Assembly: GCF_009663395.1 (NCBI RefSeq)
Contig: NZ_QKNW01000001.1
Location: 2,356,001 to 2,420,000, forward strand
DNA from: Halosegnis longus
Lineage (GTDB): Archaea > Halobacteriota > Halobacteria > Halobacteriales > Haloarculaceae
Length of the DNA stretch: 64,000 bases
Reading direction: 5' to 3'
Shown: positions 9,146-59,415 of the stretch, piece after piece
How positions within the stretch are numbered: position 1 is the stretch's first letter
How the letters are laid out: every line of letters begins with the position of its first letter
Position numbers and translations under genes: made by a program
The notes under the pieces: model-generated
Database searches by the model: none
Told to the model about the DNA's origin: nothing
What the model saw: the letters and a program-made list of their open reading frames with translations, nothing else

Positions 9146-9189
9146 TAGTGAAAATAGAGTGCCAACACCAATGAAAGTTATTCTGTTAT

Positions 9190-9745: not shown

Positions 9746-9766
9746 CACGGGAAGACTGCTGTCGTC

Positions 9767-10327: not shown

Positions 10328-10328
10328 G

Positions 10329-10337
10329 TGCACAATA
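10329..10337. promoter_or_regulatory. TGCACAATA element at the methyltransferase start
   Basis: An exact copy of the nonamer seen at 2001-2009 and 5767-5775, immediately upstream of the GTG start at 10327. Confidence 0.4.
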
Positions 10338-10430
10338 ATGGGCGTGTCGTGAAATACTTGGCGAGCCAGCCTTCATCACGTAATCATAAACCAGATTTTG
10401 TGGACGGCCAATCGGACCCACCGTCGGGAT

Positions 10431-25369: not shown

Positions 25370-25534
25370 GCCGGCGTAGCGAGCGTGACTCGTGTCTATC
25401 ATACGACCACGACAGTACGCAGGGACGTAGTCGTGTGACCCGTTCATCTCCGACGACCGCGGTCGTGTCGCTGGGTCCGCGCTGTCTCACCGGCTCCCTC
25501 AGGTCTATATCAGAGGGACAACACACCTTGCTCG

Positions 25535-33477: not shown

Positions 33478-34740
33478 TCACTCCCACTGTGCGCGGATTC
33501 GCCGATGGAACACGATCGCCGAGTCAAACCGATCAGCGACCGGCTCTCGTGTCGCACGTTCAAGCACGGACCCGATGGCTGACTCCCGGCCGTAGTCGAC
33601 GGGACTCAGTCCCTGTTCTGGTCGGTCCTGTGGCAGAGTGCCTACCCGAAGGAAAATCCCCACCAGCCCGAGCTGATACACGTCGGACGCTGCACCAATC
33701 GGCTCGTCCATCTCCTCGCGTTTCTCACCGACTTCCGGCGGCGTATACGGCGTCTGTGGGTGAAGAATCGGTCCCGATCCGGCCAGATCAATTGCGATAT
33801 CGAAGTCGACGAGTGACACTGTCCCGTCGGGCTGGAGAATGATGTCTTCGGGGAGGAGATTCTGCACGATGATATCGTTCGCGTGGCATGTTGCGACGAT
33901 ATCGGTGAGCTCTTCGAGAATGTACACAACCTCGTCGTCGGCAAGTCCCCCCTCCGTCTCGACGAGTTCCTCCAGCGTCATTCCCTCGATGACCTCCTTG
34001 ACGAGGATGGCTCCGTTCTCGCGCTCGTACTCAGCGATGACCGCTGGCAACGTCTCTGCTAGCTCGGTCTCCTGTAACTTCCGCAGGATTGCGGCTTCGT
34101 TTCTGACAAGGTCGGCCCCGTCCCCGGTAGCGAGCTTCAGAATGACGGCGTGACTCGTTTCCGTATCAGTAGCCCTCCAGACGCTCGTCTCTGACTTCCC
34201 GCCCAGGGCTTGTTCCAGCCGATAGCGGTCTTCGATAACTGTCCCTGGTTCCAACGTCGACGGGTCGAGATTCATTGTTGCTGGCGAGTCGGTCGTCGTC
34301 TCTGCTGTCTGTTCGGCGGCCGATGCTGATTCCTCATCACTATCACCGGAATCGTCTGCGGAACTCGACAAGCTGGCGCTGGCAGTCTCTCGGAGCTCGT
34401 CTAACGCATCGTCGTCGGTCTCGGCTCGTCGATAAAACACCTGAAACCCGCTGGGAGTCCCCGGTGCCGGAACCAATCGTCTGGAGAGATACCCGTCGTT
34501 CACCAGCTCATCGAGGACGAGTCGTACCGCTTGCGTCGTGAGCTCGAGCTCGTCGACATCGAACCGCTCGGCGACGCGCGTTTCGGTCGCTGTCCGTTGT
34601 CCGTCGGCTGGGAGCCCGGTGAGCACATCACTCGGGGTGGACGGTTCCGTGACCTGCTCGTACACCAGTGGCGCAACAATTTCAGCTAGCTCGGCCACGT
34701 CTCGTCCCGTCTCAGTGAAGATATCGTCTGAGATTGGCAT
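33478..34740 (-). CDS. winged-helix/protein-kinase fusion, probable pseudokinase
   Basis: A 420-residue protein. Residues ~5-105 form a winged-helix-like region (FDVDELELTTQAVRLVLDELVNDGYLSRR). An acidic Ser/Asp/Glu linker (108-155) leads to a protein-kinase fold (165-420) with the beta-3 lysine Lys202 (VILKLA) and alpha-C Glu215. The catalytic loop is altered: where HRDLKPEN is expected it reads VQNLLPED (292-299), so the catalytic Asp and the Lys are gone. DFG is DFD (312-314). It should bind nucleotide weakly or act as a scaffold or allosteric partner. It shares an operon-like run with a cold-shock protein (34798), a small wHTH protein (35548) and a propeller (35941). Confidence 0.85.
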   Translation of the reverse strand: MPISDDIFTETGRDVAELAEIVAPLVYEQVTEPSTPSDVLTGLPADGQRTATETRVAERFDVDELELTTQAVRLVLDELVNDGYLSRRLVPAPGTPSGFQVFYRRAETDDDALDELRETASASLSSSADDSGDSDEESASAAEQTAETTTDSPATMNLDPSTLEPGTVIEDRYRLEQALGGKSETSVWRATDTETSHAVILKLATGDGADLVRNEAAILRKLQETELAETLPAVIAEYERENGAILVKEVIEGMTLEELVETEGGLADDEVVYILEELTDIVATCHANDIIVQNLLPEDIILQPDGTVSLVDFDIAIDLAGSGPILHPQTPYTPPEVGEKREEMDEPIGAASDVYQLGLVGIFLRVGTLPQDRPEQGLSPVDYGRESAIGSVLERATREPVADRFDSAIVFHRRIRAQWE

Positions 34741-34797: not shown

Positions 34798-35502
34798 CTA
34801 CAGTTCGGTGCCACAGTCCGGACAGAACGCTCCATCCGGGTACGCGGAGAGGTCGGTGCCACAGTAGGGACAAAACCGCGGCGACGCGTCCGTGCTGTCG
34901 TCGGTAGTACCGGTCGGCTCCTCCGTAGCCGTAGCTCCACCGGGGTCGTAGACAGACGTCTCGTCGTTCGTGCCTCCGGCGTCGTAGACTTGGGTGTCCC
35001 CTGTCTGGTCGGCTGAAGCAGTCGACGTTGTAGCTGTCTCCGATGGCGGAGCGGACGAGGCTGCTGAATGTCCACGCCGAACGTTCAGCGTTCGGGGTCC
35101 CTTTTCCGCGAACTCGACCTCAAACGTAACATCGGTTCCTTCGGTTAGATCTGGCCCGTCGAGATCTTCCATGTGGAAGAAGACGTCCTCATCGATTGCT
35201 GGTGCTTCGATGAATCCATACCCGCCAGTGTCGTTGAAAAAGTCGACTGTCCCTTCGTACTCGGTGGCGTTCCCGCTGGTGGCCCCGCCGGACGCTGTCG
35301 ACTGCGCCCGGGAGAGGTCCTCTGCACGCGGCCCCTTGTCCGCCTGCACGATTCGAAACTCGACGGGGGTCCCTTCCGGAAGCTCTGTCAGCGAGGTGTC
35401 CTCGATGTGGAAAAATACCTCCTCGTCGGTCGCGTCCGTCTCGATGAACCCGTAGCCCCCGGTATCGTTCCAGAAGTCAACGGTGCCTTCGTGTCTGGTC
35501 AT
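34798..35502 (-). CDS. double cold-shock-domain protein with TxVY motifs and zinc ribbon
   Basis: A 234-residue protein. Two CspA-type domains lie at residues 4-65 and 82-143; each has the nucleic-acid-binding signature TGGYGFIE and VFFHxED. The linker then has two strong motifs, DTQVYDAG (169-176) and ETSVYDPG (181-188). The C-terminus is the ribbon RFCPYCGTDL ... FCPDCGTEL. ATG 35500-35502 (MTRHEG) was chosen over a GTG five codons earlier because family members begin there. ETSVYDP is the closest match in the window to GarA's ETTSVFRAD. It would link phospho-signalling to RNA chaperoning; the binding partner is inferred. Confidence 0.88.
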   Translation of the reverse strand: MTRHEGTVDFWNDTGGYGFIETDATDEEVFFHIEDTSLTELPEGTPVEFRIVQADKGPRAEDLSRAQSTASGGATSGNATEYEGTVDFFNDTGGYGFIEAPAIDEDVFFHMEDLDGPDLTEGTDVTFEVEFAEKGPRTLNVRRGHSAASSAPPSETATTSTASADQTGDTQVYDAGGTNDETSVYDPGGATATEEPTGTTDDSTDASPRFCPYCGTDLSAYPDGAFCPDCGTEL

Positions 35503-35547
35503 GTGGTCGCATGACACAGCAACTACCTAAATCGTTCCGCCGATCGC

Positions 35548-35940: not shown

Positions 35941-37212
35941 TCACAGGCGAGTGAGGTCCGTGCCACATCCCGGACAGAATTTGGGGCCGTCGAGGCCGGT
36001 GACATCCGTGCCGCAGTGTGGACAGTGCGTGATATCAGGCGAGACGGCGGTGTCCACCGCCGTGAGATGCTCGCCACACGTCGGGCAGTACTCCCACGCC
36101 GGAGGCGCAGACGGGGTATTGACGGTCTCGCCCGAATCATAGATCTGCGTGTCACCGGTCGATTCAGTCGTCGTCGGGGCTGTCTTTGCGGTCGTCGACA
36201 TCTGGAGGGCGAACACGTCGCCGTTGCTGGTGCCGTAAATCAATCCAGACTCCATCACTGCCGGTGCGCGGGTGAGTTTACCACCGGCGTCTCTGGTCCA
36301 CTGTTCGCTCCCGGTCTTCGCATCGAGACAGGCGAGCTTTCCGCCCTGGTCTCCGACAATCACTGCCTCGTCAGTTGCAACTGGTGGACAGCGAATAATG
36401 CCAAATCCTTCGCTCTTCCAGTTGAGACTGCCATCTGCTGTATCGAGACCGTACACGGAGCCGTGGTCGGTCCCCACGACGACCTGCCCGTTAACGACTG
36501 CCGGTGCAGTTTGCACGTAGCCACCGACTGTATAGTCCCATTGCTTGACTCCAGAATCGGCTGCGACGGCGTAGACACGACCGTTGTTCGTACCGGCGTA
36601 GACGACTCCGTCAACAACTGTCGGCGGTCCCTCGAAGTTGTCAGCGGCTTCGATACACCACAGCTCGGCGCCAGACTCGAGGTCGAGAGCTCGAAGACAA
36701 TCATCTCGTCCACCGACAAAGGCCGTCCCAGCCGCAACCGCTGGTGCAGTTTGAACCCACTCATCGGTGTCGAATCGCCAGCGAGTCGCGCCACTCTCTC
36801 GATCAAGCGCACAGACGCCGTTGTCCCTGGTCGCGACGATGACAAAATCCTCCGTCACTGCTGCCGGCACCGTCGAGAGTCCCTCCAGCGGTTGAGTCCA
36901 GAGGAGGTCACCGGTAGCGGTTACTGCCCGGAGTTCGTCGTTGGCTGTTGCGAAGACTGCCCCCGCATCATCTGCAGTTGGTGGTCCTAGCAATCGCTCT
37001 TCAGTTGTTGTCGCGGCCATCACAGACCCATCGGCCGTCAGCATTCGCACTGTTTTGCCGGCGGCGACGTAGAGCGTGTCCGCGGTAGCGCTTACGCCGA
37101 CAATCGAGTGATCGAACGACTGGCGCCACGCGAGCGTCGGTTCGGTCGTCGGAATCCCAGCTAGCTGCCACTCGCCATGGTGTACGGGGTTGTACTGCCA
37201 TTCGACGCCCAT
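35941..37212 (-). CDS. PQQ-type beta-propeller with TxIY motif and triple CPxCG ribbon
   Basis: A 423-residue protein. A propeller of seven or eight blades spans ~25-335 (for example VYAVAADSGVKQWDYTVGG). The linker motif is DTQIYDSG at 354-361. The C-terminal zinc region is larger than usual: YCPTCGEHL, HCPHCGTDV and FCPGCGTDL, three knuckles. No signal peptide. It is divergent from the 37343 propeller, with 130 bp of shared promoter region. Thr355 is the candidate phosphosite. Confidence 0.88.
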   Translation of the reverse strand: MGVEWQYNPVHHGEWQLAGIPTTEPTLAWRQSFDHSIVGVSATADTLYVAAGKTVRMLTADGSVMAATTTEERLLGPPTADDAGAVFATANDELRAVTATGDLLWTQPLEGLSTVPAAVTEDFVIVATRDNGVCALDRESGATRWRFDTDEWVQTAPAVAAGTAFVGGRDDCLRALDLESGAELWCIEAADNFEGPPTVVDGVVYAGTNNGRVYAVAADSGVKQWDYTVGGYVQTAPAVVNGQVVVGTDHGSVYGLDTADGSLNWKSEGFGIIRCPPVATDEAVIVGDQGGKLACLDAKTGSEQWTRDAGGKLTRAPAVMESGLIYGTSNGDVFALQMSTTAKTAPTTTESTGDTQIYDSGETVNTPSAPPAWEYCPTCGEHLTAVDTAVSPDITHCPHCGTDVTGLDGPKFCPGCGTDLTRL

Positions 37213-37342
37213 GTGTGGGCCACTGCCTGCGCTGGCAAAGAGCTACTGCTACATCCGAGGGAGAAGCGCGTGGCCGACCGCGCAATGAGAGCCACACCGG
37301 CTCTGCAGAATGCATTTACTTCTCCTCTGTGACGACCACCGT

Positions 37343-38554
37343 ATGGGCGAAGACAGTGTCAATCCGACGCACCGAGGAATGGCAGTTGGAAGCCCGGGTA
37401 GCACTGTCGAAGTCGCGTGGGAGCGGCAGTTCGAGGGCGAGTTCGCTACCTTGGCAACAGACGGCGAGACGCTCTACGTCACCGATGGTACGCGGTTGTC
37501 TGCGCTCTCTCCGCACGGGGAGACGAAGTGGGAAAGTGACCTTCCGGCCGGCCCTACATATGTTCCTGCTATCGCTGGTGACCTCCTGTACACAACCGGC
37601 GACGACGGGGCATTATACGCGATTGCGCTCACGACAGGCGCTGTTCAGTGGCGGTTTTCTCCCCGCAAGCACCTCTATGGCGGCCCGGCCGTCGGTGACG
37701 GCTACGTTTTCGTTACCGATAACCACGGAACAATCCACGCAATTGACCAGAAGGCTGGTGAGCGCGTCTGGAAGTGGACGTTCCAAGACTCGACCACGGG
37801 ACCAGTAACACCGGCAGCTGCACAGCAGACGGTGTACTGTACTGGTAAAATGGGGCCCCTCGCTGCGCTCGATACGAGCGACGGGTCGCTTCGATGGCAG
37901 CTGTCGACCGAAGGAGCGCCACGCTCAGTCACTGTCTTGGACGATGTGATTGTCTACCCGACAGATTCTACTGTTATCGCGGCCGCAAGTCCTGCTGGCA
38001 CCAAACAGTGGCGAACAGACCTCGGGAGCCATCTCGCAAGCCACGGCGCGCCGGCAGTCGTCGGTGATACGGTGTATGCAACGACGACGAACATGGCCCC
38101 CGATATCGAGGCAACGACGAATCGAGGGACTGTACACGCACTCGACCTCGCGACTGGTGGTGAGACCTGGAGCTTCGAAGCCCCCGGGCTTGTTGAGACA
38201 CTCCCTGTCGTTGTCGGCGACACTGTTCTCGTTGGCTGCCACGACGGAACGCTGTACGCCCTCGACCGAGCGACCGGTACTATCAACTGGAGCCAGCAAC
38301 TCGGCGGCCAGGTCACTGTCACCCCAGTAGTGGCTGGCGAGACCATCTACGTCGGTGCTGCAAGCGGTGAGCAGATCACGATATTTGCACTCCGCGACCC
38401 ATCAACTGGGAGCGTCGCTCAGACCAACAGCTCAGGAACGAACGTATACGAGCGAGACAGTGACTCCACGCAGGTGTATTGTGTCGAGTGTGGGACTGCT
38501 CTGACAGCCCAGCCCACCCCCGACTTCTGTCCCCACTGCGGTGCAAAACAGTGA
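37343..38554 (+). CDS. PQQ-type beta-propeller with TxVY motifs and zinc ribbon
   Basis: A 403-residue protein starting MGEDSVNPTHRG; this ATG is the only one that fits the start of the propeller, and a longer frame would run into the divergent promoter. Blades show VYxTGKMGPLAALDTSDGSLRW-like sequence (about 165). The C-terminal motifs GTNVYERD (365-372) and STQVYC (375-380) immediately precede the ribbon VECGTAL ... FCPHCG, so the second motif runs directly into the first knuckle. First gene of a short operon with 38589 and 39216. Confidence 0.87.
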   Translation: MGEDSVNPTHRGMAVGSPGSTVEVAWERQFEGEFATLATDGETLYVTDGTRLSALSPHGETKWESDLPAGPTYVPAIAGDLLYTTGDDGALYAIALTTGAVQWRFSPRKHLYGGPAVGDGYVFVTDNHGTIHAIDQKAGERVWKWTFQDSTTGPVTPAAAQQTVYCTGKMGPLAALDTSDGSLRWQLSTEGAPRSVTVLDDVIVYPTDSTVIAAASPAGTKQWRTDLGSHLASHGAPAVVGDTVYATTTNMAPDIEATTNRGTVHALDLATGGETWSFEAPGLVETLPVVVGDTVLVGCHDGTLYALDRATGTINWSQQLGGQVTVTPVVAGETIYVGAASGEQITIFALRDPSTGSVAQTNSSGTNVYERDSDSTQVYCVECGTALTAQPTPDFCPHCGAKQ

Positions 38555-44558: not shown

Positions 44559-45203
44559 TCAAGCAACCTCGAAACGGCCACGCAGCTCTCCCGCCAACAC
44601 GACTTCGTCACCGTCGGCGAGTGATGTCCACTGTTCCGGTGGAAGGCGCGTCCCGTCGAGGACGGTTCCGCCCGTCGAATCTAAGTCCTGCAGCTTGAGT
44701 TCACCATCGACCGATTCGACGATGAAATGGTCGCGGCTAATCGCTAACGCTCGCTGTTTCGCGACGCCCTGGTCGACCAAGTGGCGTCGGAGCTCTCGGC
44801 CGACTGCAACTCCCGTCGGAATCTCAATCCGGTCTCCCTCGATGTGCAACCAGACCTGTGTGCCCGCTCGGGTACCAACGTCCGGGTCGTAGACTTGCGT
44901 GGCGGTGTCGCTGTCCGCCTGCGAGTCAGACGAGCCGTCGACGCTGTCTGGCTGGTGGGCGTGCTGTACTGCTTCGGTATCACCGTCACCTCCGGCGGTT
45001 GCTGTGTCTCGCGCAGTAGCACTCGAGCTGTCATCCGACCGCTGTCGTCCCGTCGATGTGTCTGTCCCGCCGGCTGTATCGGGCGTCTCTGCGGAAGATG
45101 GTGCAGATGGGGTCCGATTTCGAGTGAGCCACCGGACACTGATTAATAAAATCGCAGAGGAGACGAGGCCGACAACAATTACGAGTGATTCGACGGAGAC
45201 CAT
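44559..45203 (-). CDS. membrane-anchored FHA domain protein with TxVY motif
   Basis: A 214-residue protein. There is one N-terminal helix (about 4-24) and then a 75-residue acidic Ser/Thr linker. The motif ATQVYDPD (101-108) lies just before an FHA domain (118-214). FHA residues recognisable are GRELRR (135-140), the SR-x-H phosphate-binding segment ISRDHF (155-160), and LDSTGGTVLDG (174-184) for the usual STNGT. The arrangement (Thr motif, then FHA) is the same as in GarA, where the phosphorylated motif binds its own FHA and switches the protein off. Second-to-last gene of the core operon. Confidence 0.88.
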   Translation of the reverse strand: MVSVESLVIVVGLVSSAILLISVRWLTRNRTPSAPSSAETPDTAGGTDTSTGRQRSDDSSSATARDTATAGGDGDTEAVQHAHQPDSVDGSSDSQADSDTATQVYDPDVGTRAGTQVWLHIEGDRIEIPTGVAVGRELRRHLVDQGVAKQRALAISRDHFIVESVDGELKLQDLDSTGGTVLDGTRLPPEQWTSLADGDEVVLAGELRGRFEVA

Positions 45204-45229: not shown

Positions 45230-46456
45230 TCAGGAGTCGTCTCCAGAGAGCCGCTCGCGGACCTTGTTTCCGAGTCGCTCCCCCACACCGCCCGACTCAG
45301 ACTCACCATCAGCAGCTTCAGCCGTGGCATCTGCGTCATCCCCGTCCTGTTCACCCGCCGGGGAATCTGTTGCGTCAGCCGAACCCGCGTTTGATTCAGC
45401 TGCGGCGTCATCATCCGCATCGTCCTCACCCCCCATGATGACGGTCTCTTCGTCGCTCACCTTCGTTTCCTCCTCGTCGATACCTCGCGGCGGGAGTGGG
45501 TCGGGAGAGTTCCCCCCAATCCCCGGGTCGGCGATGATAATCGAGATGTTATCCTTTCCGCCTCGCTCGTTGGCGATGGTGACGAGCTCCTCGTTCGCTG
45601 CTTCGAGCGTGTCGGCGGCAAGTACCGTATCCCGGATTTCGTCGTCGGTCACCGATTTCTCCAGAATCTCCTCTTTGACTTCTTCGTACTCGTCACCGGT
45701 GGCGTTCGTCAGTACGGAGTGGTAGTTCGGCGCATCAGTCCACCCGTCGATGAGCCCGTCACTCGTCACCAGGATTTTATCCTCCTGATACAGCGGAACA
45801 GAGCCGGTGTCCACGTCGACGGGCCGCATCTGCGGATCGTCGTACTGGTTTCCACCCAGTGCACGGGTAATCTGGTTTCCGTCGGGGTGGACCTCCGCCT
45901 CGACGTCATCCACTTCTCCGTCCTGTCGCATCCCCTCGACGGTCGAGTGGTCACGCGTGAGGAGGCTGATCTGGTCGTGGGCCGAGTTGATGAGATACGC
46001 CCGGCTATCGCCGACCCAGGCGAAGTGCACGAACCCGTCGTACACAAGCGCAACGACGATTGTCGTCATCGGCTCCGCTTTCGCCTCGGAGGCGTACTCG
46101 AGGATATCGGCGTGGGCGGTCTCGATTGCCGCGGTCAGCTGCTCGCGAATCTCCGTCCCGTCCGGGGCGTCATCGGTGATCGACGCCTGCATCGCGACGG
46201 CCGTCGCCTCTGGGCGGCGACGTTCAGCCGTTGCGAGGAATCCTGACAGCTCCTCCAGTACCGTGTTTGACGCGATGTACGACGCGACATCACCGTCTTG
46301 GTGGCCACCAGCCCCGTCCGCAACGACGAACAGCGCTGCCTCGCGCTCGTCATCCCGGTGGCCGGTGGCGAGCGTCGTCGCGCCGAGACTGTCTTCGTTA
46401 ATGCCGTTGCTCTGTCGTTTCCGCTTGCCGATGTCGAGGATTGTATCGTATTCCAT
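45230..46456 (-). CDS. PP2C-type serine/threonine protein phosphatase
   Basis: A 408-residue PPM-family phosphatase. Metal-binding and catalytic motifs are NEDS (20-23, Asp22), VADGAGGHQDG (45-55, Asp47), WVGDSRAYL (147-155, Asp150), LTRDHS, TSDGLIDGW (231-239, Asp233) and GGKDNISIIIAD (299-310, Asp302). The domain spans 1-310. An unusual acidic Ala/Asp tail follows, containing the motif ETKVSDEETVIMGG (330-343), which resembles the Thr motifs of other island proteins. It is the obvious phosphatase for Thr phosphorylated by the neighbouring kinase; start ATG 46454-46456. Confidence 0.94.
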   Translation of the reverse strand: MEYDTILDIGKRKRQSNGINEDSLGATTLATGHRDDEREAALFVVADGAGGHQDGDVASYIASNTVLEELSGFLATAERRRPEATAVAMQASITDDAPDGTEIREQLTAAIETAHADILEYASEAKAEPMTTIVVALVYDGFVHFAWVGDSRAYLINSAHDQISLLTRDHSTVEGMRQDGEVDDVEAEVHPDGNQITRALGGNQYDDPQMRPVDVDTGSVPLYQEDKILVTSDGLIDGWTDAPNYHSVLTNATGDEYEEVKEEILEKSVTDDEIRDTVLAADTLEAANEELVTIANERGGKDNISIIIADPGIGGNSPDPLPPRGIDEEETKVSDEETVIMGGEDDADDDAAAESNAGSADATDSPAGEQDGDDADATAEAADGESESGGVGERLGNKVRERLSGDDS

Positions 46457-46489: not shown

Positions 46490-47719
46490 CTATCCGAGGA
46501 ACTCGCACGTGACGCCGTACGAGGGGTGAACGAATGCGATCATGTCTCCCCGGTCGAGTTGGATTTCGCTGGAGAGGTTCGACGGAACGTCTCGTCCCTG
46601 TTGTTGTTGCCGCCGTCGGCCCCGCTGGGAGAGCACCTGCTGCCACCCGTTTCCTTTGTTGACGTAGGTGCCGTTGGTGCTCTTGTCTTTGAGATACCAG
46701 TTCCCGCTGTTGTCCGTGTCGAACTCCACCTGGACCGCAGAGATGTACTCCTCGTCGTCCCGGATCGGGATTGCCGGCGGAGGATTTGTCCCCTTTCGAC
46801 CGAGGGTATCACCGGGGCTAATATCGTGTCGTGCACCCTGCTGTGGGCCTGCAACGCGACGGATACGGGCCTGTTTGGGTGGAACTGGGTCCTTATTCTC
46901 CAAGGCCCGTTTCAGGATGAGCGAATTGTTGTATCGGTCCTGCGGGAGTTCCTGGGTCGCTCGTTCGAGGATGTCGCCGAGGTACCCGGGCGCATCAATG
47001 CCGAAGTCCGCCGGTCGCACCCCGTTTCCGCGTGGGGCATTGCCGGTGATGAGGAAAAACAGGAACTTCCCCATCGAGTACACGTCTGTGTGCGGACCGA
47101 GGGGGAGCGGGTTGAGGACATTCTTGTCCTGCGTGACCTCCTTGGGATACCACTGACTGGAGCCGAACTTGGTCGACCCGTCGTTGTTCGCGCTCGGGTC
47201 GGCCTCGAACTTCGACGCGGCGTTCAGGTCGATGAGCTTGAGGTCGCCGTTATTCGTCCGCATGATGTTGTCGGGCTTCAAATCTCGGTAGACGATCTCG
47301 TTTTCGTGAAGGAAGTGGATCACGTCGGCGAGTTCAATCCCAATCTGTCTGGCTTCGTTCGGATTGAACGGCTGGCTGTTGACGATTTCGTCGAGGTCTT
47401 CGCCGTCGATTAGCTCGACGACGATGAAGTCCAGCCCGCGGTGTTGAAGCGTATCCTGTAGCCCGATTACGTTCGGGTGTCCGCCGGCGTCAGTCACCTC
47501 TTCCAGGAGGTCGACTTCCCGCTGAAACCCGCTATCGATGACCGAGTCCGCGTTGGTGCCCCCGAACCGCTGATACCGTGGGTGTTTGACGGCGTACTGC
47601 TGGCCGGTCTGCTGGTCGGTCGCTAAAAAGACAATCGCAAAGCCGCCGTGGCCGAGCTGCGATTGGAGTTCGTATCGTCCGCCGACGACGTCTCCTGCTT
47701 GTGGCTGGTAACTACTCAT
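46490..47719 (-). CDS. serine/threonine protein kinase with C-terminal FHA domain
   Basis: A 409-residue protein. Kinase domain at 15-275: glycine loop LGHGGFAIV (22-30), Lys45 (VKHP), alpha-C Glu68, catalytic loop YRDLKPDN (144-151) with Asp146, and DLN instead of DFG with Asp164. The fold is complete enough to be active. An FHA domain (~305-409) follows, with WYLKDKSTNGTYVNKGNGW near 341 matching the phosphate-binding STNGT loop. The first FHA arm, around YISAVQVEF, lacks the usual SRxH. It overlaps the VWA gene by 8 nt, so they are co-translated. Kinase-FHA fusions allow binding of phosphorylated partners. Confidence 0.93.
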   Translation of the reverse strand: MSSYQPQAGDVVGGRYELQSQLGHGGFAIVFLATDQQTGQQYAVKHPRYQRFGGTNADSVIDSGFQREVDLLEEVTDAGGHPNVIGLQDTLQHRGLDFIVVELIDGEDLDEIVNSQPFNPNEARQIGIELADVIHFLHENEIVYRDLKPDNIMRTNNGDLKLIDLNAASKFEADPSANNDGSTKFGSSQWYPKEVTQDKNVLNPLPLGPHTDVYSMGKFLFFLITGNAPRGNGVRPADFGIDAPGYLGDILERATQELPQDRYNNSLILKRALENKDPVPPKQARIRRVAGPQQGARHDISPGDTLGRKGTNPPPAIPIRDDEEYISAVQVEFDTDNSGNWYLKDKSTNGTYVNKGNGWQQVLSQRGRRRQQQQGRDVPSNLSSEIQLDRGDMIAFVHPSYGVTCEFLG

Positions 47720-48887
47720 CGTCCATCACTCGCGACACGTCGTCACGAGCGGCGCGGGGATCATCGCCTTCGACGATTGTCTGGTGGTCCTCTTCAAGGC
47801 GAGTGACCTCCTCGTGGTCCGGATGGAGTTCCTCCATCTCCTCGATTCGAGTTTCGACCTGTTCCTGCTCGACTTGGGTCTCGGCTTCGATCATCTCGTT
47901 GCGAAGCTTCGTCCCCTCGAATGCGACCTCGACGTCCTCGTTGTTCACCCGGAGCTTGTCCGGATCGTCCGTGTAGTCGATTGCGAACTGTTCGTTTTGC
48001 TCGCCGCTTCCGGTCGATAGCGTGGCGTTTGCAAGCAGGAACTCCTGTCCGGCCTCTCGCTCCGGCGCCTGGAACTTGAACACGAGCTTCTGTGCGCTCC
48101 CTTCGGCCAGGTCGGGGATTTTGATTACCGCCGTGTTATCCTGCCAGTCCACATCGACCGGCTGGACCTGTGGCATCCCCATGTACACTTCCTGAACCTC
48201 GGTTCCGGTGGTCACGTTCAGCGTGAGTTCCGGATTCGCTGCGACCACGGTCGATGCCTCCTCGACCTTGTCGCCGAAGAAGTCGCGAATGTCGTTTGCC
48301 TCCTCCAGATGTCGCCACTCACCCTGAGATTTCTCACCGAGGGTCCGCACCACGTCTTCGTCGTAATCGGTGCCGATCCCGGCTGACATGATGGACATGC
48401 CCATGTCAGCACACTCCTCTGCGAGCCGCTCGAAGTTCCCCGTGTCCTGACCGTCGGTGAGGAGCAGGATTCGACGCGCCGTCTGGTCGTCGTCCGGAAG
48501 CTGTTGGAGCGTTTGGCGGGCCTTGCGAATCCCGTCCTGGATGTCCGTTCCGCCACCGGTCGACATCTGGTCGACCATCGAGCGCACGCGGTCTTTCTGG
48601 TCTTCCGTCATTTTCGTGGCGCTTAACAGCTCGTCGGCACTGGAGTTGAACGTCACCAGACTCAGATGGTCGGCGTCGTCCAACAGTCCCAGCACCCACT
48701 GGATTCCCTGGCGAACGGAGTCAATCTTCTCGCCGTGCATCGAGCCGCTGACATCGACACAGAGTGCAATCTGGCGGGCGGCATTCCCGCTTCCGCTGTC
48801 TGGGTCGATGACCATCTCGCCGTAGGTGATTCCGCCTTTGTCCGGCAGGTTCGGTCGACTCAGCCGAGTATCGATTGAATGTCCCAT
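47712..48887 (-). CDS. von Willebrand factor A domain protein
   Basis: A 391-residue protein. Residues ~35-200 are a VWA domain with a full MIDAS: DVSGSM (45-50), Thr114 in GGGTDI and Asp145 in LLTDGQD. A beta-sandwich-like region follows (225-325) and a coiled-coil, charged C-terminus (330-391). VWA proteins with kinase and PP2C partners form the TerY-P triad described in bacterial tellurite-resistance/stress systems; this gene, the kinase and the PP2C lie in a row. It is cytosolic, with no signal peptide. It likely binds the kinase or a metal-dependent partner. Confidence 0.92.
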   Translation of the reverse strand: MGHSIDTRLSRPNLPDKGGITYGEMVIDPDSGSGNAARQIALCVDVSGSMHGEKIDSVRQGIQWVLGLLDDADHLSLVTFNSSADELLSATKMTEDQKDRVRSMVDQMSTGGGTDIQDGIRKARQTLQQLPDDDQTARRILLLTDGQDTGNFERLAEECADMGMSIMSAGIGTDYDEDVVRTLGEKSQGEWRHLEEANDIRDFFGDKVEEASTVVAANPELTLNVTTGTEVQEVYMGMPQVQPVDVDWQDNTAVIKIPDLAEGSAQKLVFKFQAPEREAGQEFLLANATLSTGSGEQNEQFAIDYTDDPDKLRVNNEDVEVAFEGTKLRNEMIEAETQVEQEQVETRIEEMEELHPDHEEVTRLEEDHQTIVEGDDPRAARDDVSRVMDDE

Positions 48888-48932: not shown

Positions 48933-49712
48933 TCACGTGATGTGTACGTCCAGCTTAGCGATACCAGACAGCTCGATTGAACTCCCGTCGCTCACCTTCG
49001 TTTCGTCACCTTCCGTCAGCGATTGTCCATCGACCTCCGTCGTGTTGCGGCCGTGATCCACGACGTACACGCCGTCGTCTCGCATCTCGAATTCGATGTG
49101 TTCACGGTGGATGTACCGGGCTTCGTCGCGGTCGGTACCGTCTCTCACGAGGGCCTCTCGAACCTCTCCTCCGACGATGTCGCCGTGTGCAATCGACATG
49201 CGCTCTCCCGCAACTTCGATCTCGACGTCTGGGTCCCCATCGTCCGGCACAGGCGTGGTGTCATCAACGTCGTCACCTGGCGGCGTATCGTCGCTCGTGT
49301 CTGTTCCGGTGTCTGGAAGTTCGGTCCCACAGTTCGAACAGTATTCGAACTCTGTGGAGGATTCCGTCCCACAGCCCGGACACTGGACGGTTCCGGGGTC
49401 TCCACCGTCGTCGTCATCGTCGTCATCGTCGTCTACGGTCAGTTCGCTTCCACATTCTCCACAGAAGTCGAATGAGGCGTCGACCTCCGACCCGCAGTTG
49501 CTACACTCAACGAGGGAGGAATCACTGCCAGTATCGTCTCCCGAATCCGTCGACTCAGTGGTAGAGCCGCCAGTATTGCCGTCATCACCGTCGGAATCTG
49601 ACTTCGCCTGTGGATGTTGTGCACCACAATCAGGGTTCGTGCAGTAGCCGCCGCTGGCCCATAAGTCAAACTGCTCCCCACACCGAGGACACTCTACTGA
49701 ATCACTCGACAT
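48933..49712 (-). CDS. FHA domain protein with three N-terminal zinc-ribbon modules
   Basis: A 259-residue protein. Cysteine pairs occur at 8/11-24/29, 70/73-84/87 and 111/114-125/128, giving three ribbons separated by Asp-rich disordered linkers (including a run of Asp around 94-102). The FHA domain is at 163-259: GGEVREALVR, IHREHIEFEM (His202 region) and DHGRNTTEVDG. The segment DETKVSDG (236-243) inside the FHA recurs in the PP2C tail. First gene of the core minus-strand operon. The ATG at 49710-49712 was selected; the longer frame includes only low-quality sequence. Adapter binding phosphorylated clients and zinc-ribbon partners is inferred. Confidence 0.87.
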   Translation of the reverse strand: MSSDSVECPRCGEQFDLWASGGYCTNPDCGAQHPQAKSDSDGDDGNTGGSTTESTDSGDDTGSDSSLVECSNCGSEVDASFDFCGECGSELTVDDDDDDDDDGGDPGTVQCPGCGTESSTEFEYCSNCGTELPDTGTDTSDDTPPGDDVDDTTPVPDDGDPDVEIEVAGERMSIAHGDIVGGEVREALVRDGTDRDEARYIHREHIEFEMRDDGVYVVDHGRNTTEVDGQSLTEGDETKVSDGSSIELSGIAKLDVHIT

Positions 49713-49840: not shown

Positions 49841-49848
49841 ATTATATT
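49841..49848 (+). promoter_or_regulatory. TATA box of the J-like zinc-finger gene
   Basis: ATTATATT lies 23-30 nt before the GTG at 49871, in the 158-bp interval divergent from the core operon. It supports GTG 49871 as the start rather than the upstream TTG. Confidence 0.6.
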
Positions 49849-49870
49849 GAGTAGTGTTAACAACCTCGGT

Positions 49871-51934
49871 GTGTCTTCAGTTGAGCAATTTTACGACATC
49901 CTGGGCGTCTCAGCGGACGCTGAGCCGGGGGATATAAACGAATACGCCCGGGAGAGCGTGGACTCGTTTCGCGACCGGGTCGAGAACGCTGATGACCCGA
50001 AAGCTGAAGAGCGCAAGTTGCTCGTCGCGTACGAGGTCCTCACGGACCCGGAAGAGCGGTATCTCTACGAGCTATACGGCCACGACGAGTACGTCCAACG
50101 ACGGCTGGATGGCGAGGAGCTCACGGAGATAGAAGCAGCCTCCGGGTCGGGGGGACTCACGCCCGTGTTCGGAGCCGAGGACGATACTGGCTCCAACACG
50201 CAGATTTTCGACCCGACCGAAGCCGACGGGGCTGAAACCGCCATCCAGGATGACGGAAGCGATGAGACGGTTATCCAAGGCGAAGGAGGCGACGAGACCG
50301 TCATCCAAGACAGCGCAGATGGGTCAGCAGCGACGGATGCGACCACCATAGAGGATAGCGAGGCCTCAGACGCAGATACCGACGAGACGGTCATCCAAGA
50401 CGACGAGGAGAGCCAGGAGCCGGACAAGGACGGAATTGAAACGCTCGAGGAGTCAGAGACAGTTACGAGTAAGCTTTCGCGGTTCGGAGTCTCCAAATCA
50501 CCGCTTGCGACAGCCCCAGGGATTAGTAATCAGGAATACGGCCACGTCGCGGCAGCCGGATACGCGGTTGCACTGCTCGCCGTTGTCGGTCTCATTGGAA
50601 CAGTCCTCCCGTTCGGGAGCCCAGTGCTCGGGGCGTTTGCGGCTAGCGCACTGGTCCTCGGTGTCGGAATCACGTACACAGCGGCGTGTTACGGCTACCA
50701 CCGCGATATCCGGACGCGGACCGCGATTGGCGCCGTGGCTCCGGTCTTCCTGTTAGTCGTTCCGGAGTTCGGTCTCTTCCCAGCAGTTCCCGGGGCTGTC
50801 CTCGCTATGGTCGGGCTGAGCGTTGGGCTAGCCGGCGTCTTAGGCGCTAACTCATACATTGAAGCGACACGCAACAATCTCCGTGAGCAGCGCAAAGGTG
50901 ACACGTCGCGAGGCGGGGAGAATCATGCACGCACGGACCCGCGGTCCGGCACGCCCGACGATTCGATCCCCGCGATAGACATCCTCGAAACGTTCGCGGA
51001 TGAGTACACGACACGAACCTCGACCGTTGCGGAGGATCTGACCGACGAATCCACGATTCACTCGACGCGACACTTCGTTCCGGAGCGGCACATCAAGCGC
51101 AAGCTCATCGTCACGGATACACAGCACAACAGAGAGGTGCCGGCTAGCGACTTTGCGGCCGTCGAAAGCCGGCTCCGACATGATGTCCACGAGCGAAACA
51201 ACCACCACCCGACCGGGTTCGAGACAGCAACCTACAACTATCTCGTTCCGGAGACAGTCGAGCAGCTGACCTGTCCGAAGTGTAGCGGCCGCACTCGCGT
51301 GCAGTGTCCGACCTGTTCGGGGCACGGTGAAGTGCACTGCAGCAAATGCGGCGGTGACGCACGGAATCAGTGCCGGCGGTGTAGCGGCCGCGGCCGTGTA
51401 GAGGATAGTGACGGGAACTACTCCATCTGCAGCAACTGCGGCGGCGATGGCCACAATCCGTGTGGCCGCTGTCAGGCGACCGGAACAGAGCGGTGCAGCC
51501 GGTGTAGCGGTCAGGGAGAGATTACGTGCGACCGCTGTGAGGGTGACGGCAACGTCGCCCAGTACGTCGAACTCATTCGCGAATACGAACCCCAAGAGAC
51601 TGTCAGCTACGTATCACACAGTATTCCCGAGAAGTATCTGACTGACCCGGAGGGCAAGCAGGTGCAGAAGGATCGGTCGTACAACAGCAACGTCGACGCG
51701 ACGGAGGGTGATGTCTTCATGTCTGAACACGAGATTCGGGAGATTCCCTCGGACGTCATCACCTACGAGTACGCCGGCGACCTATACGAAACGTACGAAA
51801 TCGAAGACGAGGTCGTCGCTCCGACTCACCCGAGAGAGCTTGGCGGTCGTGTGCGCATCTTTGCTGGCCTGAGCGCTGTGTTCGCGCTCGTGTACGTGTA
51901 CGCCGTAGCTGTCGGGCCGGCTGGACTCCCCTGA
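49871..51934 (+). CDS. J-like/DnaJ zinc-finger membrane protein with multiple Thr motifs
   Basis: A 687-residue protein. The N-terminus (1-78) resembles a J domain (FYDILGVSADA ... LLVAYEVLTDPEERYLYELYG) but lacks the HPD motif, so it cannot stimulate DnaK in the usual way. The linker carries NTQIFDPT (109-116) and repeated T-x-I-Q variants (ETAIQ, ETVIQ at 122-176). Three to four membrane helices lie at ~225-330. The DnaJ-type CxxCxGxG zinc-finger region (468-562) is unusually expanded, with seven or more CxxC units, followed by a beta-like region and a C-terminal helix (~662-684). Probably a membrane hub read by FHA proteins. Confidence 0.87.
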   Translation: MSSVEQFYDILGVSADAEPGDINEYARESVDSFRDRVENADDPKAEERKLLVAYEVLTDPEERYLYELYGHDEYVQRRLDGEELTEIEAASGSGGLTPVFGAEDDTGSNTQIFDPTEADGAETAIQDDGSDETVIQGEGGDETVIQDSADGSAATDATTIEDSEASDADTDETVIQDDEESQEPDKDGIETLEESETVTSKLSRFGVSKSPLATAPGISNQEYGHVAAAGYAVALLAVVGLIGTVLPFGSPVLGAFAASALVLGVGITYTAACYGYHRDIRTRTAIGAVAPVFLLVVPEFGLFPAVPGAVLAMVGLSVGLAGVLGANSYIEATRNNLREQRKGDTSRGGENHARTDPRSGTPDDSIPAIDILETFADEYTTRTSTVAEDLTDESTIHSTRHFVPERHIKRKLIVTDTQHNREVPASDFAAVESRLRHDVHERNNHHPTGFETATYNYLVPETVEQLTCPKCSGRTRVQCPTCSGHGEVHCSKCGGDARNQCRRCSGRGRVEDSDGNYSICSNCGGDGHNPCGRCQATGTERCSRCSGQGEITCDRCEGDGNVAQYVELIREYEPQETVSYVSHSIPEKYLTDPEGKQVQKDRSYNSNVDATEGDVFMSEHEIREIPSDVITYEYAGDLYETYEIEDEVVAPTHPRELGGRVRIFAGLSAVFALVYVYAVAVGPAGLP

Positions 51935-53148: not shown

Positions 53149-54381
53149 ATGACGGCAGGGAACCCACCAGTCTCACGGCTTGCTGACCGGTACGTCGTGG
53201 AAGAGCAGGTTGGAAGTGGTGGCTTCGCGACAGTCTGGCGCGCTCGCGACACCGCTGGTGGCCCTGATATCGCGGTGAAGTTCCCGAAGTCCGAGTCAGA
53301 GACCAACAACAGTAGCGACGAGGTAGCAGCCCGCTTTCGACAGGAGTACGACTCCTACTCCCAGTTCGAGGGAGCGCCGCTGCCCTCGTCGATTGCGCGC
53401 TTCGTCGTCGGAAGTCGGTCAGCCCCGGCCTACATCGGTATGGAGTTTCTCGACGGAACGGAGTTGGGCAGCGTTTTGACGAGTGGCACAGCCCGTCCGA
53501 GCCGGTCCACGATGCAGACGTATGGACTCCCCATCGTCCGTGCGCTCGCGTATCTCCATGCAAACGGGATGTGCCATCTGGACTGTAAGCCCGATAACGT
53601 GATGGTGCGGACGGCGACGGACTCACCGGCGCTGATCGATTTCAACACCGTCACAACGACCCAAGAAGCCGGAAGCACGCTGTTTTACGAAGATGGGTAC
53701 AAGCCACCTGAGCAGACCCCGAGCGAGCGACGGGAGGAACCAGTCGGGCCGTGGTCGGACGTGTACGCTGTCGGAAAGCTTCTCTGCTACTTGCTCTCTG
53801 GACAAACGTTAGACACCTCTGATACCCCACGGACGGGGATGGACCCCACGGCGTACGGGGCTGACTGCTCACCAGCAGTAGCGAGTATTCTCGAACGGGC
53901 GACCAAGGCGGACCACACCGCCAGACAACAGCACGGTGGTGAGCTGATGACGCAACTGCTCGATGCACTGGGCGAATCGACGCAGACGAGTCTGCTCCGC
54001 GATGTCGATTCAGGGAAGCAGTGTCTGGTTCGTCCGGGCGATACAGTTGGTCGCGTCACCGACAACGATACACTGCCGACGATTACCGTCGAAGACACCG
54101 AACGCCACATTTCGCCCGTTCATTTCGCGTGCACCGTTGACGGCGGCTGGCAGCTCGAAGACCGGAGTCTGAATGGGACATACGTGAATCTGAGCGATGA
54201 GTGGGTGTTTCTCCTCAGCGACAGGGGGTATGAACAGCTCTCGAAGGCCGGCCACGAGCGCGTCGCTGATGGCCGGCCGTACTCGGCGGCGCGGCTGTCC
54301 GGGCGCACAATTATCTCACCTGTCGACCCGTCGTACCCGCTCACGCTTGAGTTATCTCCCGACACGACTCCGTCGTCGTAG
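53149..54381 (+). CDS. serine/threonine protein kinase with C-terminal FHA domain (second copy)
   Basis: A 410-residue protein. Kinase domain at 12-285: VGSGGFATVW (21-30), Lys44 (AVKFP), catalytic HLDCKPDNVM (143-152) with Asp145 (HRD to HLD), and DFN with Asp164. The FHA domain (~295-400) contains ISPVHF and WQLEDRSLNGTYVN, with LNGT for the usual STNGT. It has the same order as 46490-47719 but is too divergent for a recent duplication. Downstream of the membrane/ribbon gene by 81 nt. Kinase and FHA together should let it dock on phosphorylated TxVY clients. Confidence 0.93.
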   Translation: MTAGNPPVSRLADRYVVEEQVGSGGFATVWRARDTAGGPDIAVKFPKSESETNNSSDEVAARFRQEYDSYSQFEGAPLPSSIARFVVGSRSAPAYIGMEFLDGTELGSVLTSGTARPSRSTMQTYGLPIVRALAYLHANGMCHLDCKPDNVMVRTATDSPALIDFNTVTTTQEAGSTLFYEDGYKPPEQTPSERREEPVGPWSDVYAVGKLLCYLLSGQTLDTSDTPRTGMDPTAYGADCSPAVASILERATKADHTARQQHGGELMTQLLDALGESTQTSLLRDVDSGKQCLVRPGDTVGRVTDNDTLPTITVEDTERHISPVHFACTVDGGWQLEDRSLNGTYVNLSDEWVFLLSDRGYEQLSKAGHERVADGRPYSAARLSGRTIISPVDPSYPLTLELSPDTTPSS

Positions 54382-55867: not shown

Positions 55868-56953
55868 TTAGCCGTCGAAGACCTTCGTCACCTGGTCTTC
55901 GTAGGCGGTAACGCTGGTATCGCCGGCCACGAATAGCTGGTCTCCGACGGGGGCGATAGCATCGATTGGATGTGTGAGTTGAACTCGAGCCGTCTCGGCT
56001 CCCGTCTCGATATTGAGCGCCGTAATCTGTCGACCAGTAGTGAGATAGAACGTGTCGCCGGCGCTGGCTCTGGGATCGTCGTACTCCGGGGTGTCGTTGA
56101 TGCCGGTCAGCGATTGTTCCCACTCGACAGAGCCGTCGGCCAACCGTTGACACGTAACATCACCGTTGCTCGCGACGAGTGCGACGTTACCTACCAAGTG
56201 GCACTGGCTCAGTGCGCTAATGGTATTATCAACCAGAATCCCACCGTCATCTTTCCGCAGCAATGTCACGAAGTACGAATGGCCGAGCGTCCCGCCGGGA
56301 TTCCCCTTTACCAGTACCCCCTCTGGACGAGCGCCACGGAGCGCGTCATAATGCGCTTCTGCGTCGTCACGGATGATCTCCCACCGCTGTCGTCCACTGT
56401 CCAAAACAACTGCGTGGATACGCTCGTGGACCCGTGTGTATGCGTGGTCGTCACCGACGACGAACTCATGTGCCGGCCGCCCGCCGGCTTGCCAGAGGAG
56501 GCTACCGTCAGTGGTGTCGTACGCAGCCAACCCATCCGTCGTATTTACGATTAGCGTCGTTTCCGTGACCGCGAGACTATCGGGCCGGTCGGCGGTTGGT
56601 GCGATATCAATCGGGAATGTGTCGACTTCGGCACCGGACTGTGCATCAATCGCGACGACGCCGGTGTCGGTTCCGAGATAGACACGGCCCTCGGCGTACT
56701 CGACGCCGTGGGTCGGTGCCGCTTGCGTGTAGTTCCAGCGCTGGGACCCGGAGTCGGTGTCGAGGACGGACAGGCCATCAGAGCGGCCGACCAAGAGACC
56801 GTATGGCGTTGTTCGCAGCGCTTCACCGAGGACAGTTGCGTCCCGCAGTCCAACGCTCCACTGTTCGGTTAGCTGTGAGACGCTGCTCTCGCTGTCGATT
56901 GTCGCGGTCCGGGCCGGTCCCCCTCGGTATCCACGCCAGTACTCGCCACTCAT
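55868..56953 (-). CDS. PQQ-type beta-propeller ending in TKVFDG
   Basis: A 361-residue intracellular propeller without a ribbon. Blades include LSVLDTDSGSQRWNYTQ and VVAIDAQSGAEVD. The last seven residues are VTKVFDG (355-361), the shared Thr motif placed at the extreme C-terminus. ATG 56951-56953 (MSGEYWRGYRGG) was chosen because the upstream extension into the divergent promoter is not conserved in character. Same strand as the core operon but separated from it by the plus-strand operon. Confidence 0.87.
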   Translation of the reverse strand: MSGEYWRGYRGGPARTATIDSESSVSQLTEQWSVGLRDATVLGEALRTTPYGLLVGRSDGLSVLDTDSGSQRWNYTQAAPTHGVEYAEGRVYLGTDTGVVAIDAQSGAEVDTFPIDIAPTADRPDSLAVTETTLIVNTTDGLAAYDTTDGSLLWQAGGRPAHEFVVGDDHAYTRVHERIHAVVLDSGRQRWEIIRDDAEAHYDALRGARPEGVLVKGNPGGTLGHSYFVTLLRKDDGGILVDNTISALSQCHLVGNVALVASNGDVTCQRLADGSVEWEQSLTGINDTPEYDDPRASAGDTFYLTTGRQITALNIETGAETARVQLTHPIDAIAPVGDQLFVAGDTSVTAYEDQVTKVFDG

Positions 56954-57166
56954 GTGGGATGCTGTTACATGCGACGACAAAAGTGTAGGTGCCAGCATCC
57001 GGCCGGACGCCGAACTATCGTCTCAGTAGCTCGTCTCGATGAGTACTGGCTAGTGGTGCACTGCGCCGAAAGACTCCCTGGGGGCTGGTAGCATCCGCCA
57101 GAAATTTTACGACACTGCGACGAACCAGTGAATACCGTATGAGAATGCACCGAGGGTGGTCTCGCG

Positions 57167-58738
57167 ATGGGTGAGACGGTGTGGGAGGTTACGATTGGGG
57201 AGAACGTCACCTCCTCCCGTTATTTTCGCGACTTCGATGTTGTGGGAGTTCCCAGCGATAGTACGTACACGATTCTCACCGCTGGCGACGGGACAGAGCT
57301 GCTGAGAGTCGATACCGATACGGTCGCACACAGGTCAAAACCGCTTCCCGACGAGAATCTATTGTTACTTTCGACCGGCGGTGAAACGATCGCCGTCGAC
57401 ACGCAACAGTGGGAGGTCCAGTGGCGAAGCGACGGTGGGACGCCAGAGGCGATTGGTGAAGATCGGATTGTACTCGCTGATGAGGCAACCATCACAGGTG
57501 TTAACAAAGCAAGCGGTCGGCGCGAGTGGCGAGAGACACTGAGTGAGGATAGAATCGATGTGCTGTGTATCTCACAGGGAACAGTCGTACTGAGTCCCGG
57601 CGACTGGGATGATAACACGCTCATTGGAATCGACGCCGGGTCAGGCCGTCAGCGTTGGAGACACGTCGAGGACTACTGGAAGAGTTTCGAGGCCTACGAA
57701 GACGGGGTTCTCGTTGAGTGCAAGGAGTGGCCGGACGGGGATTCGTACTACTCGCTCACGAAAATCAACCCGGTGAATGGTCAAGAGCAGTGGCATGTCG
57801 ACGAGTATCTCAGTCTCATCAGCGGCGAGCTCATCGGTGACTTGTTCGTCAGTAATGGCGACCGGCTTTCGGCGGTCAATACCCGCACAGGGCGGATTGT
57901 GTGGGCAAACGAGTATCCGTCGATTAACAACCAGTTCTGGCTCTCAGAGCACGAAGAGCTGTTTGTCAGCGTGCAAGAGCCAGATTATGATGAACACCGC
58001 ATCAAACAGATTGACCCCGAAACGGGGGACACAGAGTGGGACCTGGTCGTTGATGATCAGATTCGCGGGATCGAGCGGCTCAACAATCAGGGGTTGGACA
58101 ACTGGATCGCCGGCTCGTGGACGTATGAGCAAGAGGACGACTCTTCGTTCGTGTACCGGTTATCAAGCACGTACAGTATGTGGCAGACGAACCTGCCCGA
58201 GGAGGTCAATCAGTTCGACGCGACTGGCTCGCCGGTCATTGGCGTTGGTCGCAACAATACACTGTATGCGTTTGATGAGGACGACGGAACGCTGGAATGG
58301 ACGTTCAGCGACGAGCGGCTAAATCTCATTAGTGCCGGTGACGAGAGTCTCGTCGTGTTAGCTGCCGGTGAACGGTACCTCATCAGCCGTGAAGACGGCC
58401 GGATTGAGGAGGTGTTTACCGATGGGTCTGTGGCGAGCGCCGAACAGGGAGCGATTTGGACACACGACCAGACCGTTGAGGCATATTCCCTCGGAACAGG
58501 GTCTCCTCTTGGCGATACGTCCGGGGGTACAACTGCAGACAGCGGTGATACGCAAGTCTACGCCGGTGGCGACACCGGTCCCGACGAGACGAATGTGTAC
58601 GCCGACGACAGCGGAGAATCGACCCAAGCCTCGACGACAGTCGATGACACGACGATTTCGTTTTGCCCGTCGTGTGGCTCGAATCTCGACGGCTTCGACT
58701 CCGTCGCCTTTTGTCCCAGCTGCGGGACAGAGTTGTAG
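57167..58738 (+). CDS. PQQ-type beta-propeller with two TxVY motifs and zinc ribbon
   Basis: A 523-residue protein, the longest propeller here. Blades: LIGIDAGSGRQRWRH, LSAVNTRTGRIVWANE, LYAFDEDDGTLEWTF. The linker carries DTQVYAGG (461-468) and ETNVYADD (474-481), then the ribbon FCPSCGSNL ... FCPSCGTEL. No signal peptide. The ATG at 57167 is the clearest start. Both Thr462 and Thr475 are in acidic, accessible sequence. Divergent from 55868-56953 with ~210 bp between. Confidence 0.88.
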   Translation: MGETVWEVTIGENVTSSRYFRDFDVVGVPSDSTYTILTAGDGTELLRVDTDTVAHRSKPLPDENLLLLSTGGETIAVDTQQWEVQWRSDGGTPEAIGEDRIVLADEATITGVNKASGRREWRETLSEDRIDVLCISQGTVVLSPGDWDDNTLIGIDAGSGRQRWRHVEDYWKSFEAYEDGVLVECKEWPDGDSYYSLTKINPVNGQEQWHVDEYLSLISGELIGDLFVSNGDRLSAVNTRTGRIVWANEYPSINNQFWLSEHEELFVSVQEPDYDEHRIKQIDPETGDTEWDLVVDDQIRGIERLNNQGLDNWIAGSWTYEQEDDSSFVYRLSSTYSMWQTNLPEEVNQFDATGSPVIGVGRNNTLYAFDEDDGTLEWTFSDERLNLISAGDESLVVLAAGERYLISREDGRIEEVFTDGSVASAEQGAIWTHDQTVEAYSLGTGSPLGDTSGGTTADSGDTQVYAGGDTGPDETNVYADDSGESTQASTTVDDTTISFCPSCGSNLDGFDSVAFCPSCGTEL

Positions 58739-58788
58739 GCGACACCGTGTCGACGGGCGGGGGACTCGCGCCGCTGGCTCGACTGCGA

Positions 58789-59415
58789 CTACTCGAGGTC
58801 GTAGCCGCAGCCGGGGCAGAAATCAGGTGATGCGACCTGCTGGAGGTCCTGTCCACACATCGGGCAGTAATCCTGGGTGGGACTGAACACGCGCGTCGAT
58901 GTACCGCTGGATTGTGGCGCTGGGGTCCCCGTCGGCCGCTGGACAGCGTACACGTGGTGGTCGCCGCTGGAGATGTAGACGGTGTTGCCAGCGACGGTCG
59001 GTGCTGACCGAACGCGGCCCTTGGTTTCGAAGACCCACTCTTCGCTCCCGTCGCTCGCGTCGAGGGCGTACATGTGACCGTCAGTGCTCCCGAAGAACAC
59101 CGTTCCGTCATCGATGACGGGAGTACAGGTGATACGACGGTCAGCGCTGAACGTCCACCGCACGCTCCCGTCACTGCGAGCCAGCGCGTACAGCGTCTCA
59201 TCGTCGCTGCCGACGTACACCGTATCCACAGTGACCGCCGGCGAATGGCGAATCATATCGTTCGTTTCGAACTCCCACTCGACGTTACCCGTGTCCCTGT
59301 CGAGCGCGTAAACGAAGTTGTCATCGCCCGCAACGAAAATCATCCCACGGTCCGCTGTCGGCGGCGCTCGAATCCGTGCCCCGGTTTTCTGTTGCCAATC
59401 GAGCGAGAGACTCAC
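58789..59415 (-). CDS. short PQQ-type propeller with TxVF motif and zinc ribbon
   Basis: A 208-residue protein with only four PQQ-like blades (VYALDRDTGNVEWEF, LYALARSDGSVRWTF, MYALDASDGSEEWVF), half the usual number, so it must dimerise or bind a partner to close a propeller. The motif STRVFSPT (173-180) and the ribbon DYCPMCGQDL ... FCPGCG follow. It begins at a GTG (59413-59415), since no ATG upstream extends the propeller. It may be a truncated or minimal member. It diverges from the FHA gene at 59497. Confidence 0.83.
   Translation of the reverse strand: MSLSLDWQQKTGARIRAPPTADRGMIFVAGDDNFVYALDRDTGNVEWEFETNDMIRHSPAVTVDTVYVGSDDETLYALARSDGSVRWTFSADRRITCTPVIDDGTVFFGSTDGHMYALDASDGSEEWVFETKGRVRSAPTVAGNTVYISSGDHHVYAVQRPTGTPAPQSSGTSTRVFSPTQDYCPMCGQDLQQVASPDFCPGCGYDLE

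Follow-up and report, generated by a model that had tools for sequence, protein, structure and literature searches.

A haloarchaeal membrane protein combining a J-like domain, a zinc module and repeated threonine tags, encoded beside a kinase/PP2C/FHA gene cluster

In Sulfolobus, the FHA protein ArnA binds ArnB, a VWA protein, at its C-terminus, where the phosphorylation sites of ArnB lie (PMC6509490). In Corynebacterium OdhI, T15 of the stretch ETTSVF is phosphorylated and then bound by the protein's own FHA domain (PMC2784874). The TerY-P triad is defined by VWA, PP2C and kinase genes, the kinase having at its C-terminus either a zinc ribbon or an OB fold (PMC11090510), and ZnJ2 works as a holding chaperone without a J domain (PMC5818400). 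The chloroplast proteins CJD1 and ARC6 combine membrane helices with a J-like domain that lacks the HPD motif. Beyond ArnA and ArnB, we know of almost no substrates or partners of archaeal Hanks-type kinases or FHA proteins. Here we describe a locus of Halosegnis longus that shares features with these systems and departs from them. We propose, with about even confidence, that its central protein is a lineage-specific, multivalent membrane docking platform of a kinase/PP2C/FHA system, working in a phosphorylation-dependent manner; the phosphorylation and the FHA binding are what we infer.

The window analysed is a stretch of 64,000 nucleotides (C1:2356001-2420000) of a 2.77-Mb genome. An uninterrupted open reading frame at 49847-51934 (+), read from the translation of its frame, encodes 687 residues from GTG 49871 or 695 from TTG 49847. 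The GTG is the best-fitting start, because the TATA-like sequence TTATAT precedes it by about 27 nt and the protein then opens with its J-like domain. Judged from the translation and structure model m2e3701609993, the product of the gene so delimited (49871-51934, +) starts with a J-like domain, continues with a disordered linker, four membrane helices and a beta/CxxC/beta module, and ends in a further membrane helix. Hydropathy and the model place the four helices (50537-50908, +) at residues 231-253, 259-282, 286-307 and 316-354, and the C-terminal helix (51842-51913, +) at residues 666-689, numbered on the 695-residue form. The first-pass annotation had read from this gene a J-like domain without HPD, several membrane helices, at least seven DnaJ-type CxxC units, and a linker with NTQIFDPT and copies of ETAIQ and ETVIQ; each of these features is present, the CxxC count being eight. 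It had also called the architecture unfamiliar, and rightly so: our searches located the fusion of J-like domain, linker, membrane helices and zinc region in this genome and found it in no second one. Peptide patterns used to seek related loci in collections of genomes and of viruses gave no match.

The J-like domain (49883-50107, +) is recognizable but altered. It matches PF00226 (DnaJ) at E=1.2e-5 with 25.7 bits (cut-off 27.8), scores 30.5 bits for Pfam DnaJ in a six-frame search, and aligns with the J domain of E. coli DnaJ at E=7e-8. The alignment places F-R-D at the position of HPD, and because HPD is missing, the domain cannot, to judge by its sequence, play the normal role of an Hsp70 activator. 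It would instead serve as a protein–protein contact rather than as a co-chaperone trigger. The zinc region reaches only 15.8 bits for PF00684, the four-unit CxxCxGxG domain of DnaJ (cut-off 32.7), having eight CxxC units in a related fold. The C-terminal substrate-binding domains of DnaJ have no Pfam match in the protein, whose beta parts are without a fold match in the PDB. By these three defining tests, the protein falls outside the DnaJ family. It resembles CJD1 and ARC6 in joining an HPD-less J-like domain to membrane helices, but a CxxCxGxG module and threonine tags have not been reported for those proteins.

The linker (50129-50536, +) is acidic (about 32% D+E) and predicted to be disordered, with pLDDT below 50 over residues 95-237. 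It carries NTQIFDP (50195-50215), ETAIQ (50234-50248), three copies of ETVIQ (50264-50278, 50294-50308 and 50384-50398) and a weaker, tag-like ATTIE (50339-50353), all on the plus strand. NTQIFDP belongs to the same class as TEVFNP, TQVYDP and TKIYDP in neighbouring proteins. When the linker was shuffled 20,000 times, the pattern T.[VI][QYF], observed six times, occurred 0.12 times on average and at most three times; ET.IQ, observed four times, had a shuffle mean of 0.008 and a maximum of one. The codon differences among the four ET[AV]IQ copies are mainly synonymous, so that the copies are no fresh DNA repeat; this points to selection acting on the peptide rather than to recent duplication of the DNA. 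The threonines thus lie, by sequence and pLDDT, within a disordered region. The commonest FHA preferences are pTxx[ILV] and pTxx[ED] (PMC8786283), and the tags fit neither, with Q at the +3 position of ETVIQ and F at that of NTQIF. Because Q misfits the usual +3 preferences, ETVIQ may be a form of the tag that is weaker or read in another way.

Beyond the helices, the module consists of a beta-rich domain (50972-51271, +; pLDDT about 80-97) that is conserved in J-less homologues, a zinc region of the BSD2/DnaJ type (51272-51550, +) and a second beta half (51551-51817, +; pLDDT above 90 over most of it), which may resemble eukaryotic SSUH2. Six of the eight CxxC units in the zinc region take the form CxxC-x-G-x-[GA], and profile searches match the region to the cysteine-rich domain of DnaJ (1exk, 3e-8) and to BSD2 (6ekb, 6e-5). 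A structural model of the zinc region, a check that the first-pass annotation had suggested, predicts a fold that matches BSD2: in Foldseek, 6ekb was the sole match of the zinc-module model (E=3.6e-3, probability 1.00), and the full-length model found no useful match in the PDB. The resemblance to the zinc fingers of DnaJ proposed earlier stands, but a simple expansion of those fingers does not, the module forming a separate haloarchaeal beta/CxxC/beta family whose members are usually J-less. Like ZnJ2 and BSD2, the protein has a DnaJ-like CxxCxGxG zinc fold without a working, HPD-bearing J domain; ZnJ2 and BSD2, in contrast, are small, with four CxxCxGxG units and neither beta flanks nor membrane helices.

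The beta/CxxC/TM family is scattered among haloarchaea. Its members (for example in the Halosimplex genome G088) share the zinc module and the C-terminal membrane helix with the tagged protein, the closest at 30-38% identity, and the cysteines conserved in the family are retained here. They differ in having neither J-like domain nor tags. Two gene associations tie the module to chaperones. In genomes G349, G248 and G400, the module gene overlaps the end of an Hsp70-like gene directly upstream (L074 8364-9509, L075 8474-9613 and L174 323-1459); one of these three Hsp70-like genes (L174) has a weak PF00012 match (2e-4). In G198 and G246, the module gene overlaps, tail to tail, the gene of a J-domain membrane protein (L084 10644-11780 (-) and L086 10628-11719 (-)) that combines a J domain bearing HPD with a J-like domain lacking it. 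This second domain resembles the J-like domain of the tagged protein (E=4e-7 in a single comparison). Because the module adjoins a J/J-like membrane gene in those two genomes, the fusion can be read as parts that are neighbours elsewhere, with a tagged linker added. As a separate observation, the pair of Hsp70-like and CxxC/TM genes is a possible two-gene chaperone system of haloarchaea.

These associations, the BSD2-like fold and the precedent of J-less ZnJ2 all speak for a different reading, in which the protein, bound to the membrane, serves the proteins of the cluster as a ZnJ/BSD2-like holding chaperone or disulfide-type factor and the tags act as a phospho-switch rather than a scaffold. 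It would leave unexplained why one linker holds five copies of the tag, and relatives with the same module do without tags; we regard it as unlikely, if a serious contender.

The gene is divergent from an FHA operon, as noted from the outset: its neighbour (48933-49703, -) encodes a protein with a double zinc ribbon and an FHA domain (PF00498, 3.3e-6). Also on the minus strand are genes for a VWA protein (47712-48887; PF00092, 5.4e-19), a Ser/Thr kinase fused to FHA (46490-47719; PF00069, 1e-34; PF00498, 9e-8), a PP2C phosphatase with the tail EETVIMGG (45230-46456; PF13672, 4e-16) and a membrane FHA protein with the tag TQVYDP (44559-45203; PF00498, 8e-9). A second Ser/Thr kinase-FHA gene lies at 53149-54381 (+; PF00069, 1e-24). 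VWA, PP2C and Ser/Thr kinase genes adjoin one another here as in the TerY-P triad, but the kinase carries a C-terminal FHA domain instead of a zinc ribbon or OB fold. A third kinase-like protein (33478-34740, -), whose catalytic HRD stretch reads VQNLLPED, is likely a pseudokinase. A defence role is unsupported, because the PADLOC matches of the kinases are to generic Hanks-type kinases (PD-T4-6, mad6) and no match was obtained for the J-like, VWA or PP2C protein.

The tag is not confined to the linker. The 31 genes at 31-61.5 kb contain 26 matches to T.[VI][YF], where shuffles that preserve composition give 5.0; over a 400-kb sample taken elsewhere in the genome the motif is at chance level (63 against 56 in shuffles). 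The longer pattern T.[VI][YF].P occurs in eight of the 31 cluster genes and in three of 371 genes elsewhere. These gene counts are approximate, since the genes come from our own codon-score caller with ORFs added by hand. The background comprised twenty 20-kb genome stretches, and because the last of them (L071) is part of the same island, the contrast between cluster and background is conservative. The control motifs T.[YF][VI], [YF][VI].T and A.[VI][YF] showed no enrichment in the cluster; for S.[VI][YF] the counts, which were small, were about threefold elevated. Of the 26 T.[VI][YF] matches, some fall within folded domains such as the kinase core. Most lie in linkers that directly precede a C-terminal zinc ribbon, and 10 of the 13 zinc-ribbon-ended proteins of the cluster have a match in their last 130 residues, one of them inside a membrane stretch. 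Proteins of this kind fill the low-G+C island, which comprises 31000-61500 of the window and L071 (C1:2420001-2440000), extending at least about 9 kb past the window with the further tags ETRIFDP, TDVFTN, TEVFTN and TDVFDH. Among the proteins of the window, one of unusual architecture (34798-35517, -) has two cold-shock domains, two tags and a zinc ribbon, and PQQ-like beta-propeller proteins, most with a zinc ribbon and a tag in their translations, are encoded at 24203-26713, 31356-32657, 35941-38554 and 55868-59415.

Close relatives of the kinase-FHA protein are patchily distributed: of the 293 genomes of the order, 40 have one, among them Haloarcula, Halomicroarcula, Halosimplex, Salinibaculum, Halovivax and Halomicrobium. 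The non-homologous VWA, PP2C and zinc-ribbon proteins retain T-x-[IV] in otherwise variable tails across dozens of further haloarchaeal clusters; GGTDIY, the VWA MIDAS motif, and TDVYS of the kinase core were excluded from this reading as domain-internal. The C-termini of VWA orthologues end in such tags in all 27 named loci listed (for example ATKIVTD and TTVVYD), and the window's own VWA protein is without one. The zinc-ribbon protein keeps T[RQ][VI][FY] in a linker whose conservation is otherwise 20-30%. PP2C C-termini are mostly R[ED]T[VL][IL] (RETVIFSDE, RDTVIMTDE), a strict pattern being found in 22 of 38 and the other endings being mostly near variants such as RETVLLPEE. Because PP2C tails read R-[ED]-T-V-I, and that of the window EETVIMGG, the ETVI found in the J-like protein is the very tag that the phosphatase bears on its tail. 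In L120-L153, the R-[ED]-T-V-[IL] tail is a conserved feature of haloarchaeal PP2C proteins encoded beside kinase-FHA genes.

That the tag is strictest at the C-terminus of PP2C, and that I/V at +2 is more constant than the +3 residue, could reflect kinase preference and would suit a model in which the kinase or PP2C themselves use the T-x-[IV] tags for docking or as substrates, in autoregulation, and the tags are not FHA ligands. We consider this improbable: FHA domains that retain their phosphate-binding residues abound in the cluster, and the precedents from archaea and bacteria favour the reading of such tails by FHA.

An Arg, a Ser and an Asn are the phosphate-binding residues of FHA domains; their counterparts R308, S327 and N349 are invariant in 14 kinase-FHA proteins, so that FHA domains with intact phosphate-binding residues lie near the tags. 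Together with at least five FHA proteins in the cluster (by Pfam) and the ArnA/ArnB and OdhI precedents, this makes FHA, by analogy, the likely reader of the tags; PP2C, VWA or zinc ribbons are possible other readers. As in ArnA-ArnB, the system is archaeal and pairs an FHA protein with a VWA protein whose phosphorylation sites would lie in the C-terminal tail. The Sulfolobus system, by contrast, has no comparable kinase/PP2C operon and no J-like/zinc membrane protein, and to our knowledge no repeated T-x-[IV] tags. The T-S-V-F site of OdhI, with F at +3, conforms to the cluster's T-x-[IV]-[FY] pattern, and in OdhI/GarA and mycobacterial PknB-FHA a Hanks kinase phosphorylates such a site and an FHA domain reads it; those systems are bacterial and have one tag in one protein.

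The architecture, the enrichment of the tags and their conservation are computational observations. Because the five linker tags are the short threonine tag of many unrelated proteins of the system, the J-like protein is probably a membrane docking station. The cluster kinases would phosphorylate the linker threonines, the FHA domains of kinases and FHA proteins would bind several tags at once, and PP2C would reverse the modification. Binding would draw soluble FHA, VWA and zinc-ribbon proteins to the membrane, beside a zinc module resembling a holding chaperone. The first-pass annotation had suggested a multivalent membrane platform for FHA proteins; the recurrence of the tags in this and orthologous clusters and the invariant FHA residues favour it, with phosphorylation and binding as its conjectural part. 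Q at +3 of ETVIQ, where other tags have an aromatic residue, the missing C-terminal tag of the window's own VWA protein, the raised count of the control motif S.[VI][YF] and the restriction of the fusion to one genome count against it.

A broader reading, which we hold tentatively and somewhat below even confidence, is an archaeal phosphothreonine tag code, in which unrelated members (VWA, PP2C, beta-propellers, HEAT repeats, cold-shock domains and zinc ribbons) share T-x-[IV] and are gathered at the membrane by the five-tag J-like/zinc scaffold. If it is true, an archaeon wires a whole set of proteins through one linear motif, and the tagged membrane protein would be the first J-like/zinc scaffold of such a system. 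Tags kept in the variable tails of many cluster proteins are predicted phosphosites.

The G+C content of the island is 0.59, that of the genome 0.67, and searches of genomes of the genus gave no convincing orthologue of the J-like, kinase or VWA gene, the J-like gene being absent from the other five; this suggests that the island genes were horizontally acquired. This setting, the lost HPD and the occurrence in one genome could also point to a decayed DnaJ paralogue or a chance fusion on a mobile island, devoid of specific role. We think that very improbable, given the long intact frame, the retained module cysteines, the synonymous changes between tag copies and the tags common to neighbours.

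Two further observations concern gene origins and surroundings. One contig (L146) labelled as a Phycisphaerae bacterium MAG carries a haloarchaeal-type kinase-FHA gene and is probably misbinned. In a G+C-poor upstream stretch of the window (730-11324), sulfur-metabolism-like genes were recognized by eye from their translations: sulfite exporter-like, YeeE-like, rhodanese, DsrE-like and metallo-beta-lactamase-rhodanese.
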